In this document: positions 1,342-22,700 of the stretch, piece by piece
Layout of the letters: each line of letters opens with the position of its first letter
Numbering within the stretch: the stretch's first letter is position 1
IMG/VR virus record: IMGVR_UViG_3300021185_000683
Coordinates: 1 to 24,545 of that record
DNA: 24,545 nt
Origin: a virus
Strand: one strand, 5' to 3'
Notes under the pieces: generated by a model
The model's database searches: none
Seen by the model: the letters and a program-made list of their open reading frames with translations, nothing else
Told to the model about the DNA's origin: nothing
Position numbers and translations under genes: made by a program

Positions 1342-2565
1342 ATGGACCAAGCAATACTCAAGAAACTACTATCGAGCGAATTTTATAATGATAACAGGGC
1401 CAAGCTAAAAAGAGCCCTATTTGCCGAAGAAGGCGCAGACCTCTTCGATGTACTGGAACAAGCACACAGTAAGTATGGACATGATCTGTCCGTCAAAGAG
1501 CTTTTGATTCTGTACAAGATAAACAATCCTATTTCGACAGAAGCAGAAGTGGGCGTTGTAACAGATGTTATAACAAGCATAAGCAATGCGCCTGATATAT
1601 CTGACGGTGTGGCGCAGGACGCTATCATAGATTTGTGGAAGCGAGAGAACGCCCGGCAGATAGCTGACCTAGCCATTAGCGCAGCTACTGAAGGCAACTT
1701 CGAGGCAATGGTTACCATCCGTAATATCATGGATGAAACCATAAGCAGCTACGTCCCTGATGACTTCGGTGACTTCACAACTGATGATCTAGATGAGCTT
1801 CTTGCCGAGACAGGCAACGGGAATAGATGGATGTTCAACATCCCAAGCCTAAGCAGGAATGTTTATGGCATTGGTCCGGGGGAGTTTGCTATCGTATTTG
1901 CTACCCCGGAGACAGGTAAGAGTTCATTTGTTGTGAGCTGTTGCGCTGGGCCCGGCGGCTGGTGTGAGCAAGGTGCTAAGATCTTGTACCTTGGAAACGA
2001 GGAAACAACTCGACGTACAAAGGTTCGAGCCTACCAAGCGTGGTGTGGCATGAATGAGCAGGAGCTGCTGGATCGAAACGAAGAAGCCAAGCGCAAGTAT
2101 ACTGCCATCAAAAGCAACATGCTGATGAAGGATATTCAAGATTGGGATCTAAACCGTATCGAAGCATTCATCGATAAGGTTAAGCCTGATATCATTATAC
2201 TAGATCAGGGTGATAAGATTCAAATCGCTGGCCAGTATAACGCAGGCCATGAGCGACTTAGAGAACTGTACAGGCGGTTAAGGGAAACAGCCAAGCGTTA
2301 TGACGCTGCGGTCATCTCTGTTAGTCAGGCTAGTGCGGATGCCGAGCACAAGACTAAGCTGTCATATACAATGATGGAAGGATCTAAGATTGGTAAGGCT
2401 GCGGAGTCTGACCTGATCATAGGCATAGGAAGACACTCAGGTGAGACCGATAGCGGGGAACCTGACCCTACTCGCTTCTTGACTGTTAGTAAGAATAAAC
2501 TCTCCGGCTGGCATGGAACTATCCCTGTCGTTCTAGAGGCGGGGATTAGTCGCTATGTCCAGTAA
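1342..2565 (+). CDS. replicative DNA helicase, DnaB/RecA-fold (SF4)
   Basis: This 407-residue protein should unwind the replication fork with ATP. The C-terminal half carries a Walker A loop ATPETGKS (residues 187-194), a Walker B strand IIILDQ ending at D288, and a later strand with VISVSQAS (Q329), in the order seen in DnaB and T7 gp4 helicase domains. Residues 1-160 are mainly charged helices with low recognisable similarity; they could bind the separate primase encoded at 3-677. AGAGG at 1331-1335 gives a proper ribosome site for the ATG. The end overlaps the polymerase start by 11 bases, so translation is likely coupled. It is the first gene after the terminator/promoter segment. Confidence 0.92.
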   Translation: MDQAILKKLLSSEFYNDNRAKLKRALFAEEGADLFDVLEQAHSKYGHDLSVKELLILYKINNPISTEAEVGVVTDVITSISNAPDISDGVAQDAIIDLWKRENARQIADLAISAATEGNFEAMVTIRNIMDETISSYVPDDFGDFTTDDLDELLAETGNGNRWMFNIPSLSRNVYGIGPGEFAIVFATPETGKSSFVVSCCAGPGGWCEQGAKILYLGNEETTRRTKVRAYQAWCGMNEQELLDRNEEAKRKYTAIKSNMLMKDIQDWDLNRIEAFIDKVKPDIIILDQGDKIQIAGQYNAGHERLRELYRRLRETAKRYDAAVISVSQASADAEHKTKLSYTMMEGSKIGKAAESDLIIGIGRHSGETDSGEPDPTRFLTVSKNKLSGWHGTIPVVLEAGISRYVQ

Positions 2566-4729
2566 GTATGAAGGATGGCTGGTCCTAGATTTAGAAACCA
2601 CAGTTCAGAAGATTGATGGTAAGTGGGATAACTCACCAAAGAACCCTAATAACAAAATGGTATCGGCGCATTACGCATGGATAACTGCTGATGGTCTGGG
2701 CGAGGTCAAAAGTGACTTTTACCATCACAAGGACTTGAAGAATTACGGGGTGTGGAATCACGCTTTGAAGCACCCTGATGATCCCAGAAAGCTAATGAAG
2801 GCTCTCAAGAAGGCTAAGGGTTGTATTGCACACAACCGTAAGTTCGACAGTTTCTGGCTGAGAGAAACAGGCTTCAAGGAATATATGCCAGAGAATTGGT
2901 ACTGTACCATGCAAGCTGAATATCTTCTGGCAAAGGGTCAACGCACCGAGCTGTCTCTATCAGCAACGTCAGAACGCTATAACGTCACTCGTAAAAAGAG
3001 TGATCTGGTTGATGATATGTTTAGGCAGGGGACCGGGTTCGAGGAGATGCCTATCGAAACAGTCCGGGAATATGCCGAGGCTGATGTCATTAGCTGCGGT
3101 GAGATATTCCTAGCACAGCAAGCCAGATTTGAAGAGCCTGACAATGTATCGCTTCTTCCTGTCTTACAGCTCACATCAGAAATGACAGAGTTCCTGCTGG
3201 AGATCGAAAGTAACGGTTGCCAGATAGATATGGATGTACTGCTTGAGGTCGAACATACATACAAGACGGAGCAATCCAAGCTGCTATCTGATCTGACTAG
3301 GATCATTGAAGAGGTGATGGGGGATACTCCAATCAATCTCAACAGCGGGCAGGATCTCACTAAGGTAGTGTACTCCCGTCAGGTAATAGACAGAGAGGTC
3401 CACCGATCTGAGTTCAATATAGGAGTGAATGCTGCGGGAAAACCTCTACGCCCCACTCCCATGAACAAAGCACAGCTCACTAAGGCTGTAAGAAAGACAA
3501 CTCAGAAGGTTTATCGGACTGAAGGTATGTGCTGCAAGGAGTGCAAAGGCTCTGGCACAATACAGAAGTATAAGAAGAATGGTGACCCGTGGAAGAATAG
3601 AACCAAATGCCCGGTATGTTCAGGTGTGGGTGCTCTCTACATTCCTACAGGTAAGATTGCGGGCCTGAAGCTCATCCCTACAGTTTCGGCTGACGCTTCT
3701 ATCAACGGATTTAAGACCGATAAGCTGACGATCAAGAAGCTCATTGATCAGGCCTATGCTAAGGATAACTTGACTGCGGTTGAGTTCCTTACCAAAATCA
3801 CACGGCTCAATGCCATAAGCACTTACCTTGATAGCTTTGTAAGCGGCATCAAGACATGGACTAGATCGACAGGGCTACTGCACTCCACGTTCAATCAGAC
3901 CGTAACTGCAACTGGCCGCCTAAGTTCCACCAATCCAAATTTCCAGAACTTACCAAAAGGAAATAAGTTTGAAGTTCGCCGGGCTATTGTCAGTAGATTT
4001 GCTGGCGGGAGCTGCGGAGAAATGGATTTCAGCGGTCTTGAATTTAGAGTCGCAGGGATGCTTTCAAAGGATCAGCAGATCATTGATGACGTTCTCGTAG
4101 GTAAGGATGTTCACAGGCAGACTGCCTCGATCATACTACAGAAGCCAGAAGATCAGGTTACTAAAGAAGAAAGAGGTCAGGCAAAATCCAAGACGTTCCA
4201 GCCACTTTATGGCGGGATTGGGATGGGAGAGCCGGACCATGTTCGTGCATATTTCAGTTCATATTTTAAATTATATCAGGGACTTGCACGATGGCATAAG
4301 AGCCTCGGTGATGAGGTATTAAATCGAGGATATATACAGACCCCGAGTGGGCGTCAGTTTGCATTTCCTAACGCCAAACGTCTGCGAAATGGCAGGATCA
4401 CCAACCATACTCAGGTGGTAAACTTCCCCTGCCAATCGTTTGCCACAGCGGACATTGTTCCTCTGGCATGCATACGTGCCCTGCGTAAGTTTAGAGAGAT
4501 GGGGCTGCTTAGTAAGCTGATCCTAAGTGTGCATGACTCCATCGTCGTAGACATACATCCAACCGAGATACAGGACGTAGGCAGGGCACTCCAGTGGGCT
4601 ATGAGCGGCGTAGATGAAGAGCTCCAGCACAGGTTTGGATATCAGGCAGTTCTCCCATTAGATACTGAGTATTCAGTCGGTAGCAACTGGATGAATATAG
4701 AAGAGATAAGTGTTGATACGGACACTTAA
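2555..4729 (+). CDS. DNA polymerase I, family A, with embedded DnaJ-like zinc finger
   Basis: This is the replicative polymerase, 724 residues. The 3'-5' exonuclease is intact: D12/E14 (LDLET), N94 and D98 (HNRKFD), and Y173/D177 (REYAEAD). Between it and the polymerase domain sit two DnaJ-type repeats, CKECKGSG (327-334) and CPVCSGVG (352-359), enough for one zinc site. The polymerase motifs follow: A with D491 (MDFSGLE), the O-helix R540-K544-F548-Y552, and C with H660-D661 (SVHDS). F548 aligns with Phe762 of E. coli Pol I, not the Tyr of T7. No 5'-3' exonuclease domain is present, as expected for phage enzymes. The zinc-finger insertion is, as far as I recall, typical of HMO-2011-type marine podoviruses. 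Confidence 0.95.
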   Translation: MSSKYEGWLVLDLETTVQKIDGKWDNSPKNPNNKMVSAHYAWITADGLGEVKSDFYHHKDLKNYGVWNHALKHPDDPRKLMKALKKAKGCIAHNRKFDSFWLRETGFKEYMPENWYCTMQAEYLLAKGQRTELSLSATSERYNVTRKKSDLVDDMFRQGTGFEEMPIETVREYAEADVISCGEIFLAQQARFEEPDNVSLLPVLQLTSEMTEFLLEIESNGCQIDMDVLLEVEHTYKTEQSKLLSDLTRIIEEVMGDTPINLNSGQDLTKVVYSRQVIDREVHRSEFNIGVNAAGKPLRPTPMNKAQLTKAVRKTTQKVYRTEGMCCKECKGSGTIQKYKKNGDPWKNRTKCPVCSGVGALYIPTGKIAGLKLIPTVSADASINGFKTDKLTIKKLIDQAYAKDNLTAVEFLTKITRLNAISTYLDSFVSGIKTWTRSTGLLHSTFNQTVTATGRLSSTNPNFQNLPKGNKFEVRRAIVSRFAGGSCGEMDFSGLEFRVAGMLSKDQQIIDDVLVGKDVHRQTASIILQKPEDQVTKEERGQAKSKTFQPLYGGIGMGEPDHVRAYFSSYFKLYQGLARWHKSLGDEVLNRGYIQTPSGRQFAFPNAKRLRNGRITNHTQVVNFPCQSFATADIVPLACIRALRKFREMGLLSKLILSVHDSIVVDIHPTEIQDVGRALQWAMSGVDEELQHRFGYQAVLPLDTEYSVGSNWMNIEEISVDTDT

Positions 4730-7751: not shown

Positions 7752-9437
7752 ATGAGCAGTTTTAAATCCAACCTTAACCCGGCATTCCGATCAAAGTTCA
7801 GCGAAGACATCTTCAATCATAAGTATAAACATGAAGGCGCTGAAACTTGGGATGCGCTGGCTAAGACACTAATTGATGATGTATGTGGTGACTTCCTACC
7901 ACAAGAAGAATTAGACCAGCTCACACAGTATGTGCGTGAGATGAAGTTTATTCCGGGCGGACGTTACTTGTACTACGCCGGGCGTCCAAACAAGTTCTTT
8001 AACAACTGTTACCTTCTGAAGGCAGAAGAAGATACTCGTGAGGATTGGGCGGACCTTTCATGGAAAGCAGAATCCGCCCTAATGACAGGTGGGGGTATCG
8101 GTGTAGACTACTCTGTTTACCGTGCCAGTGGGTCGCCTATCGCTAAGACAGGCGGACAGGCCAGCGGGCCTATCCCTAAGATGAATATGCTGAATGAGAT
8201 TGGCCGCCGTGTAATGCAAGGTGGATCACGGCGCAGCGCTATCTATGCCAGCCTTAATTGGAAGCATGGGGATATCCATGAGTTCTTAGAAGCTAAGGAT
8301 TGGGCTAACATGCCTGTGGGAAATACAGGCAAGACTCTGTGGGACATCAAGCAAGATGACTTTAACTTCCCTGCCCCGTTGGACATGACAAACATCTCGG
8401 TGAACTACGATACTGAATGGCTTCTGAATTATTACAAGACAGGTGATGTAGGCGAAGTGTTCATGAAGAACGTGCGGCAGGCAATGCAGTCAGCAGAGCC
8501 GGGCTTCTCGTTTAACTTCTTTGATAAGGAAGATGAGACACTTCGTAACGCATGCACGGAAGTGACATCGGCCGACGATAGCGATGTATGCAACCTTGGG
8601 TCTATTAACATGGGCCGAGTAGAAGACATCGATGAGATGGCAGACCTCGTTGCGCTGGGCACAAAGTTCTTAATCTGTGGAACACTAAAAGCCCGTCTGC
8701 CTTATGACAAAGTATATGAAACTCGTGAAAAGAACCGTCGATTGGGCCTTGGCCTGATGGGTATGCATGAGTGGTTAATTCAGAGAGGGTCTAAGTATGA
8801 AGTTACTCCAGAGCTGCATTCATGGTTACAGGTATATAAGGGCGTCAGTGATAAAGTATCACGAGAAACAGCAGATGAGTTCTCTATATCTAGACCCGTT
8901 GCCAACAGAGCCATCGCTCCAACCGGGTCCATTGGTATTCTGGCTGGCACCAGCACTGGCGTTGAGCCTATTTTTGCTGTTGCTTATAAGCGTAGATACC
9001 TCAAGGGCAACACACGATGGGTATACCAATATGTCGTTGACTCAGCAGCTCAAGAATTAATTGACAGGTATGGGGCACAGCCCGATAATGTAGAGAGTGC
9101 TTTGGACCTTGCGTCTGACTATGAACGGCGCATGGCATTTCAAGCTGACGTACAAGACTATGTTGATATGTCGATATCTTCGACGATTAACCTTCCTGCA
9201 TTCGGGAGCAAGCTGAATAATGAAAATACGGTTGAAACCTTCGCTAATACGCTGGCTAAATACGCACCAAGACTCCGTGGCTTCACTTGTTATCCTGATG
9301 GTAGTCGTGGTGGTCAGCCTCTCACTTCCGTACCATATGACGAAGCCGTAGAGAAGTTAGGCGAAGAATTCGAAGAACACATAGAGACACACGATATCTG
9401 CGATATCTCTGGAAACGGGGGTAGTTGCGGAGTGTGA
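7752..9437 (+). CDS. nrdJ: ribonucleotide reductase, class II (adenosylcobalamin-dependent)
   Basis: This 561-residue enzyme reduces ribonucleotides to deoxyribonucleotides for phage DNA. Key residues are visible: redox C86 (NNCYLL) paired with C280 (DVCNLG), the radical site N266-x-C268-x-E270 (NACTE), the PTGSIGILAGTSTGVEP loop (390-406) and C-terminal C550 and C559 for re-reduction by thioredoxin-like partners. No ATP-cone is seen at the N-terminus and no small subunit gene follows, favouring a class II enzyme over class I. The enzyme would need host cobalamin. The catalytic loop reads NACTE rather than the usual NPCxE. It lies directly downstream of the MazG-like gene. Confidence 0.9.
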   Translation: MSSFKSNLNPAFRSKFSEDIFNHKYKHEGAETWDALAKTLIDDVCGDFLPQEELDQLTQYVREMKFIPGGRYLYYAGRPNKFFNNCYLLKAEEDTREDWADLSWKAESALMTGGGIGVDYSVYRASGSPIAKTGGQASGPIPKMNMLNEIGRRVMQGGSRRSAIYASLNWKHGDIHEFLEAKDWANMPVGNTGKTLWDIKQDDFNFPAPLDMTNISVNYDTEWLLNYYKTGDVGEVFMKNVRQAMQSAEPGFSFNFFDKEDETLRNACTEVTSADDSDVCNLGSINMGRVEDIDEMADLVALGTKFLICGTLKARLPYDKVYETREKNRRLGLGLMGMHEWLIQRGSKYEVTPELHSWLQVYKGVSDKVSRETADEFSISRPVANRAIAPTGSIGILAGTSTGVEPIFAVAYKRRYLKGNTRWVYQYVVDSAAQELIDRYGAQPDNVESALDLASDYERRMAFQADVQDYVDMSISSTINLPAFGSKLNNENTVETFANTLAKYAPRLRGFTCYPDGSRGGQPLTSVPYDEAVEKLGEEFEEHIETHDICDISGNGGSCGV

Positions 9438-19786: not shown

Positions 19787-19961
19787 GTTCTGCCATCGCT
19801 TTATAAAAGTCTGAGGCCTTAGTCTGGGCCTGCAATTCGTCAGCAAGAACTTTACCTTTTTCTACCTTCTTCCCATCCCTGCGCCCTAAGACATAGAGAA
19901 TGGGAAGCAGTAGTGCTAAACCAGCAATTAGATAAAGTTTGATCTTGCTGAAGATAAACAT
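19719..19961 (-). CDS. inner-membrane spanin subunit, Rz-like
   Basis: The 80-residue protein has one N-terminal membrane segment (about residues 8-26, LYLIAGLALLLPILYVLG), then a charged periplasmic helix (KKVEKGKVLADELQAQTKASDF) and a basic end (ITRLRRDGL). That is the N-in, C-out form of Rz i-spanins. It follows the lysozyme directly with a one-base overlap (TGATG), and the Rz1-like lipoprotein gene starts inside it. At 80 residues it is shorter than lambda Rz (153), but similar to other short podovirus Rz proteins. Confidence 0.8.
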   Translation of the reverse strand: MFIFSKIKLYLIAGLALLLPILYVLGRRDGKKVEKGKVLADELQAQTKASDFYKAMAEHDEDTSVNSRDGLITRLRRDGL

Positions 19962-20689
19962 CAGTGGATGCCTTCTTTATTATCGTGCCAGCGGGCATAA
20001 GCTGCTAAAGCTATCCCACCAATCGCACACAGCAGGAACAGAGTCTTGAGCATAGGCGCATAAGAAACCAATCCTTGGATCTGCCCAGCGACTTCATTTA
20101 AGCCTGTCGCAGCTCCCGCAATGCCAGCCCCAGCCATCGTCTTCGATTTAACGAGTGACTTAGGTGCTTCCTGAGTAGGCTTCTGCACCATTAGGTCACC
20201 GCCATCAGAAGCTAGGATAGCATCCATCGAGAACAATGCACCTTCAGCAGCCCGGCGGCGTGTCAGGCCACGTAGAGGAGTTAGTTTACCATCTACTCGG
20301 GCCTTGTTCCATCTATTCAGTTGCTCTGGGATTTCATCGTACAGACCCTTGTTCAATTTCTTGAGCAAGGTGCTGGATTTGAAGTTACCTTCGCCTATGT
20401 TGAAAATCCACGAGGTCAAACTATCGTACTGATTTTGAGATAGAGGCACATGGACATAGCGGTGAATCGCCTTTGCGTGAGACTCAATATCTCTTGCTAA
20501 GAGGTCTTCTGCTTCGGCAGGGGTGATCTTCATTCCTGACCTTACACCCTTGCACGAGCCAAAACCTATGGTCCACTTTCCGGCGCTACAGCGGTAACTG
20601 TGGATCATGCCATCGGCACCGACTTTATGCAGCCCCTCAAACTTCTTAATTAGGTCTATGCCTGTCTGGCTTACGCTTGTTGGTATCAT
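19961..20689 (-). CDS. endolysin, GH24 lysozyme with C-terminal membrane segment
   Basis: The enzyme cuts the peptidoglycan glycan chain during lysis. Residues 10-155 match T4-like lysozymes: catalytic E18 (LIKKFEG), YRCSAGKWTIGFGS (32-45), TPAEAEDLLARDI, SWIFNIGEGNFKSSTL and the end RWNKARVDGK..LRGLTRRRAAE. At the Asp and Thr positions of the T4 triad it has C34 and C46. After a linker, residues 196-205 are Gly/Ala-rich and about 221-241 (MLKTLFLLCAIGGIALAAYAR) form a strong membrane segment ending in WHDNKEG. AGAGGTAA precedes the start. There is no N-terminal signal. No separate holin is visible nearby; the C-terminal anchor may replace or assist one. Confidence 0.9.
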   Translation of the reverse strand: MIPTSVSQTGIDLIKKFEGLHKVGADGMIHSYRCSAGKWTIGFGSCKGVRSGMKITPAEAEDLLARDIESHAKAIHRYVHVPLSQNQYDSLTSWIFNIGEGNFKSSTLLKKLNKGLYDEIPEQLNRWNKARVDGKLTPLRGLTRRRAAEGALFSMDAILASDGGDLMVQKPTQEAPKSLVKSKTMAGAGIAGAATGLNEVAGQIQGLVSYAPMLKTLFLLCAIGGIALAAYARWHDNKEGIH

Positions 20690-22671: not shown

Positions 22672-22700
22672 ATTATAGACACTTAACTAAGTGTTGGCAA
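22672..22700 (-). promoter_or_regulatory. sigma70-like promoter P1 (far), near consensus
   Basis: On the minus strand TTGCCA (22700-22695) and a perfect TATAAT (22677-22672) are separated by exactly 17 bases. The start would be near 22665, giving a leader of about 40 bases before the GNAT-like gene. It lies in the only sizeable gap (78 bases) of this part of the late arm. Confidence 0.75.
22679..22694. promoter_or_regulatory. 16-bp palindrome filling the P1 spacer; candidate operator
   Basis: ACACTTA-gt-TAAGTGT (minus strand reading) has two perfect seven-base arms and occupies 16 of the 17 bases between -35 and -10. A dimeric DNA-binding protein sitting here would block RNA polymerase, as in many repressor/operator pairs. 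The two-base centre makes a stable RNA hairpin unlikely, and no T-tract follows, so a DNA site is the better reading. Confidence 0.6.

Follow-up and report, generated by a model that had tools for sequence, protein, structure and literature searches.

The promoter-like elements and the genes around them

The window, by which we mean the whole stretch of DNA analysed here (24,545 nt), comes from a virus record that is a 24.5-kb fragment. The gap between an upstream ORF and a GNAT-like ORF on its minus strand holds two promoter-like elements, P1 and P2 (Table 1). Read along the minus strand from 22700 to 22672, P1 is TTGCCA-ACACTTAGTTAAGTGT-C-TATAAT, where ACACTTAGTTAAGTGT is a perfect 7-2-7 inverted repeat and the single C is the only base left over in the 17-nt spacer. 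The preliminary description of this DNA had reported TTGCCA-N17-TATAAT with such a repeat in the spacer, which is exact to the base; its location also stands, and we add that the whole of P1 lies on the minus strand and faces the GNAT-like ORF. P1 shows a sigma70-like match of 11/12, the joint best in the window; the equal match, at 9061, is intragenic, and P1 is the best intergenic promoter match. Both hexamers, a spacer within 16-18 bp, an intergenic position and a gene to read into are all present, as in a sigma70-type promoter, and the transcript start predicted from the position of the -10 element is at about 22665. The probability of a palindrome this good in a random 17-nt spacer is 5.6e-4 in a simulation.

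The ATG of the GNAT-like ORF lies 44 bases from the P1 -10 element. The label given to this ORF earlier holds in part, in that its relatives are annotated as acyltransferases but the ORF itself has no Pfam match. The genes that follow are the coiled-coil and lysis genes already recognised in the preliminary description; beyond the lysozyme gene lie two further small ORFs, one of which weakly resembles Rz1. The sequence 3' of the upstream ORF varies between relatives, and in the phage CRP-212 the equivalent gap separates the GNAT-like gene from a gene of the tail module. P2, which is absent from the preliminary description, has a -10 element that ends 4 nt before the ATG. Both of its hexamers and its last 4 nt are invariant over the 8 distinct alleles of this gap, making it better conserved than P1. 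P2 may act as another promoter or belong to a conserved leader, and its transcript, if P2 is used, would be nearly or fully leaderless.

Table 1. Positions of the features in the window and of an unannotated gap in four complete roseophages
Feature	Position	Strand	Remarks
Upstream ORF, 177 aa	22706..23239	minus	ends 5 nt before the P1 -35 hexamer
P1 -35 hexamer	22695..22700	minus	TTGCCA
Operator-like palindrome in the P1 spacer	22679..22694	minus	ACACTTA-GT-TAAGTGT
P1 -10 hexamer	22672..22677	minus	TATAAT
Promoter-like element P2	22632..22661	minus	TTGCCT-N18-TATAAT; between P1 and the ATG
First downstream ORF, 149 aa	22178..22627	minus	GNAT/acyltransferase-like, from relatives' annotation only
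Downstream ORF, 491 aa	20699..22174	minus	repetitive, coiled-coil-like
Lysozyme (endolysin) gene	19961..20689	minus	Pfam Phage_lysozyme, E 2.8e-40
Unannotated gap, CRP-212	50165-50939
Unannotated gap, CRP-3	48353-49212
Unannotated gap, CRP-235	48878-49632
Unannotated gap, CRP-738	48726-49533

The polymerase encoded at 2555-4729 has a cysteine-rich DnaJ-like insert (CxxCxGxG), a described feature of HMO-2011-type phages (PMC6918029). Together with a gene order common to CRP-3 and CRP-212, this partial DnaJ insert places the window, as judged from its sequence, among the HMO-2011-type roseophages, as a fragment whose close relatives are CRP-212 and CRP-3, with helicase-polymerase DNA identities of 69% and 65%, respectively. 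Phages of this type are reported to be dominant in the ocean, and CRP-3, CRP-212 and CRP-235 have a common host, FZCC0040. Neither promoters nor repressors come up in the two papers that we searched on the group, and a search for a transcriptome of the group returned none. CRP-3 integrates into the host tRNA-Met gene (PMC6918029). Upstream of the primase gene in CRP-212 (~2800-2850), CRP-3 and CRP-235, a stretch whose opposite strand resembles a tRNA gene's 3' part is probably the attP core. All four complete roseophages also share an unannotated gap of ~750-860 bp that contains short blocks of conserved DNA (Table 1), in which we found no tRNA and, in an Rfam search of CRP-212, no family at the gathering level. 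In the metagenomic relatives G019, G024 and G025 the integrase gene has one in-frame stop; in G027 it is split in two.

Conservation and recurrence of the palindrome

A GNAT-like gene with at least 85% identity is found in nine viral contigs and CRP-212, and the gap is included in eight of these contigs and in CRP-212. Over the 8 distinct alleles, the P1 -10 hexamer is invariant, the palindrome arms show 92-93% mean pairwise identity and the -35 hexamer 89%, while the two central bases of the palindrome (66%), the P1-P2 interval (67%) and the upstream flank (62%) are much more variable; at four-fold degenerate sites of the GNAT-like ORF the mean is 0.74, and 0.59 between the window and CRP-212. 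The arms are conserved together with the hexamers across relatives, in keeping with the candidate operator that the preliminary description had placed in this spacer. Arms that do change keep the form CACYTA-NN-TARGTG, the changes being symmetric or within the same Y/R class. The alleles are ACACTTAGTTAAGTGT in the window, ACACTTAGCTAAGTGT in L009, ACACTTAGTTAGGTGT in CRP-212, GCACCTAACTAGGTGT in L007, ACACCTAGTTAAGTGT in L016 and L064, and ACACCTAATTAGGTGT in L020, and every one of them fits CACYTANNTARGTG. The GNAT promoters of the more remote relatives CRP-235, CRP-738, G004 and L017 have a TTGC -35 element, a TATA-type -10 element and mainly the -10-proximal arm, and the GNAT gap of CRP-3 has neither promoter nor palindrome.

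A search for the 16-mer elsewhere, as proposed in the preliminary description, gives no second copy in the window with up to 3 mismatches but does give sites between genes in related phages, with the shared consensus ACACYTANNTARGTGT. CRP-212 has three exact sites, all intergenic, at 348 (upstream of the integrase gene), 25972 (the GNAT gap) and 48589 (before a DUF1127 gene), the last being part of the promoter CACCTAATTAGGTG-TGG-TATAAT. CRP-3 carries the palindrome before its DUF1127 gene, at 46710. In G001, the record of L009, the DUF1127 promoter is ACACCTAATAGGGTGT-GA-TATAAT, degenerate yet symmetric, and a degenerate palindrome pair lies upstream of the integrase gene; L170 and L168 contain GCACCCAACTAGGTGC-GG-TATAAT and CCACCGAGTTAGGTGT-GA-TATAAT, respectively. 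Between lineages, the outermost pair of the DUF1127 promoter switches on both sides, from ACAC..GTGT to GCAC..GTGC, and these promoters have no recognisable -35 element. The small-protein gene with the DUF1127 domain (CRP-212 48374-48568; L037:21375-21569) is conserved in four relatives and lies directly behind the operator-bearing promoter. G004 has two exact sites, at 2211 and 38495, and the second is its coat-protein promoter, TTGCAA-AGCACTTAGTTAGGTGT-TATAAT; in CRP-212 and G001 the orthologous promoter of the coat gene retains the left half alone. The 16-mer is separated from the -10 element by 0, 1 or 2 nt, and the spacers of the palindrome-bearing GNAT and coat promoters are 17 or 18 bp. 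Symmetry kept by paired changes and a site at several promoters of one genome are what is expected of a repressor operator.

The pattern CACYTANNTARGTG occurs at 12 places in 18 related records and at none in the reversed control, which indicates a small cis-regulon in the CRP-3/CRP-212-like clade, with the P1 palindrome as one member, rather than a lone curiosity, and strengthens the operator reading of the preliminary description. In 8 sequences, 9 sites were observed against ~0.2 expected under a first-order Markov model; because the GNAT-gap sites of the window, CRP-212, G001 and G002 are orthologous, not all nine are independent. CACTTA ranks first among the 4,096 six-base half-sites of 6-2-6 palindromes in these genomes, and a word-enrichment count without a preselected motif places TAGGTG and TAAGTG among the leading words immediately 5' of -10 elements. 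The exact operator is present in one of 23 wider-group records and, by its distribution in the sequences, belongs to one clade, the CRP-3/CRP-212-like phages. Some 70-odd other viral contigs that combine the palindrome with TATAAT have proteins in common with the group only at the level of weak capsid or lysozyme similarity, and we regard them mostly as other contexts or chance. Separately, TTGACA-ACACCTACTTAGGTGTA-TATAAT occurs at L059 3478 and in similar contigs, an identical architecture in unrelated phages, where the adjoining gene resembles T4 gp55.

Candidate regulators and the mode of action

Because the 16-base symmetric sequence recurs at other promoters of the group with its symmetry kept, the palindrome very probably acts as the docking site of a regulator, and this regulator is most likely a repressor. 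The 0-2 nt between the 16-mer and the -10 element, together with spacers of 17-18 bp, favours occlusion over contact activation or MerR-type untwisting, which makes repression the best reading. On balance, we think it probable that P1 is the promoter of the lysis-side late genes and that its palindrome is the operator of a dimeric repressor shared with other promoters. P1, as a host sigma70-type promoter, would drive these genes; a dimeric, sequence-specific DNA-binding protein on the palindrome would fill the interval between -35 and -10 and exclude RNA polymerase, and P1 would fire once the protein is lost or diluted. We infer that the regulator is phage-encoded, as we infer protein binding itself and repression rather than activation. 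It is plausible that the palindrome times the late genes. P2 is strong and has no palindrome, and with P1 alone repressed the genes may therefore still be transcribed.

The operator is found at coat, DUF1127 and integrase sites in relatives, which makes it probable that late genes, integration and a small early or middle gene are co-ordinated by a single regulator, in a group with temperate members. If the coat, lysis-side, DUF1127 and integrase promoters were repressed together, this could serve lysogeny or the timing of the lytic cycle. In a bolder and more doubtful version, to which we give a limited chance, a phage repressor of an unrecognised family would use one spacer operator to hold down the late promoters (coat and lysis-side) along with those of DUF1127 and the integrase; if true, the abundant HMO-2011-type marine phages would thereby have their first known switch for lysis versus lysogeny or for timing.

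As in the preliminary description, no repressor gene is visible in the window, and the complete relatives contain no secure one. The best helix-turn-helix (HTH) candidate in the complete relatives is a gp55-like protein (CRP-212 51713-52378) with HTH_23 and resolvase-HTH matches below the cut-off. It fits CRP-212, CRP-3 and G001, which encode it, but it is present in six viral contigs only and was not found in G002 or G004, both of which bear the operator; on these grounds we set it aside as the regulator. A gp50-like protein of 85 aa (L162-L241, e.g. L165:2501-2755) has the near-invariant N-terminal motif INLxYIRAAIEANTGxRLSL...YLVEEGLI, is present in all complete isolates and in G001 and G002, and is conserved in 270 viral contigs. 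Pfam and the PDB yield no match to it, and PHROG none that is informative; its AlphaFold model is of modest confidence, with no meaningful PDB fold match. This protein was rejected as well, because it is so widespread and yet 22 of 23 such records have no exact operator. An RNA hairpin was discarded as an explanation of the palindrome, which lies upstream of the expected transcript start and, on the promoter strand, would contain C-A mismatches in some alleles; an Rfam search of the window found nothing.

A host transcription factor might also bind the palindrome, with the phages exploiting it to time late genes or to sense the state of the host. Such a factor would fit the finding of one consensus in both CRP-212 and G002, although their helicases are 55% identical and their G+C contents are 0.49 and 0.39, and it would fit the absence of a phage protein that tracks the sites, the gp50-like protein being more widespread than the operator and the gp55-like protein lacking in G002 and G004. 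CRP-235, however, grows on the same host as CRP-3 and CRP-212 and has no exact site, and when 84,980 species genomes were scanned for the whole promoter with the palindrome, the six matches were unrelated bacterial ones, none of them from an alphaproteobacterium. To our knowledge, the palindrome resembles no known alphaproteobacterial box. We consider this explanation unlikely. Less probable still is that an activator of late or middle genes, rather than a repressor, binds the palindrome. In favour of this, the sites occur at the late promoters for coat and lysis-side genes; no clear -35 element is seen in the DUF1127 promoters, so that an activator replacing the -35 contacts is possible there; and the gp55-like protein weakly resembles late activators and Mor in its HTH. 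On the other hand, most known sites between -35 and -10 act by blocking polymerase, the GNAT and coat promoters come close to consensus unaided, and the spacing to the -10 element is not fixed.

Finally, there may be no regulator, the arms being a favoured spacer sequence and their symmetry a chance feature shared by descent. The promoters are indeed orthologous within the clade, so conservation is partly due to descent, and the -10-proximal half-site is kept where the left arm is broken. This reading is nevertheless highly improbable, since non-orthologous promoters carry the palindrome with symmetric changes, and both the reversed control and the Markov expectation lie far below the observed counts. 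A repressor operator thus accounts best for the palindrome. Its value is that it points to a regulatory system, so far unstudied, in an abundant group of marine phages: the shared operator names the promoters that are worth mapping and can serve as DNA bait for its regulator.

Comparison with known regulatory systems

A phage promoter combined with an operator is of a known kind and belongs to ordinary phage gene control. Like the CI and Cro operators of the lambda OR/OL type, the candidate operator is a two-fold symmetric site of ~16 bp over or between -35 and -10, repeated at several promoters of one genome, in a group with temperate phages. Unlike in lambda, where the operators cluster at the divergent early immunity region, the sites here, which are candidate operators by sequence, are mostly single per promoter and are found on late coat and lysis-side promoters. 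Promoters of MerR-family activators resemble P1 in having a palindrome centred between -35 and -10, but their spacers are over-long (19-20 bp). The GNAT and coat promoters do not combine such a spacer with a centred palindrome; their spacers of 17-18 bp need no correction by a MerR-type untwister, and the position of the palindrome relative to the -10 element varies. The NrdR box has the consensus ACACWATATATWGTGT and is likewise 16 bp long with ACAC/GTGT ends and overlaps promoters; the P1 palindrome differs from it at four inner positions, and, unlike NrdR boxes, it is not one of a pair at P1 and does not lie at ribonucleotide reductase genes.
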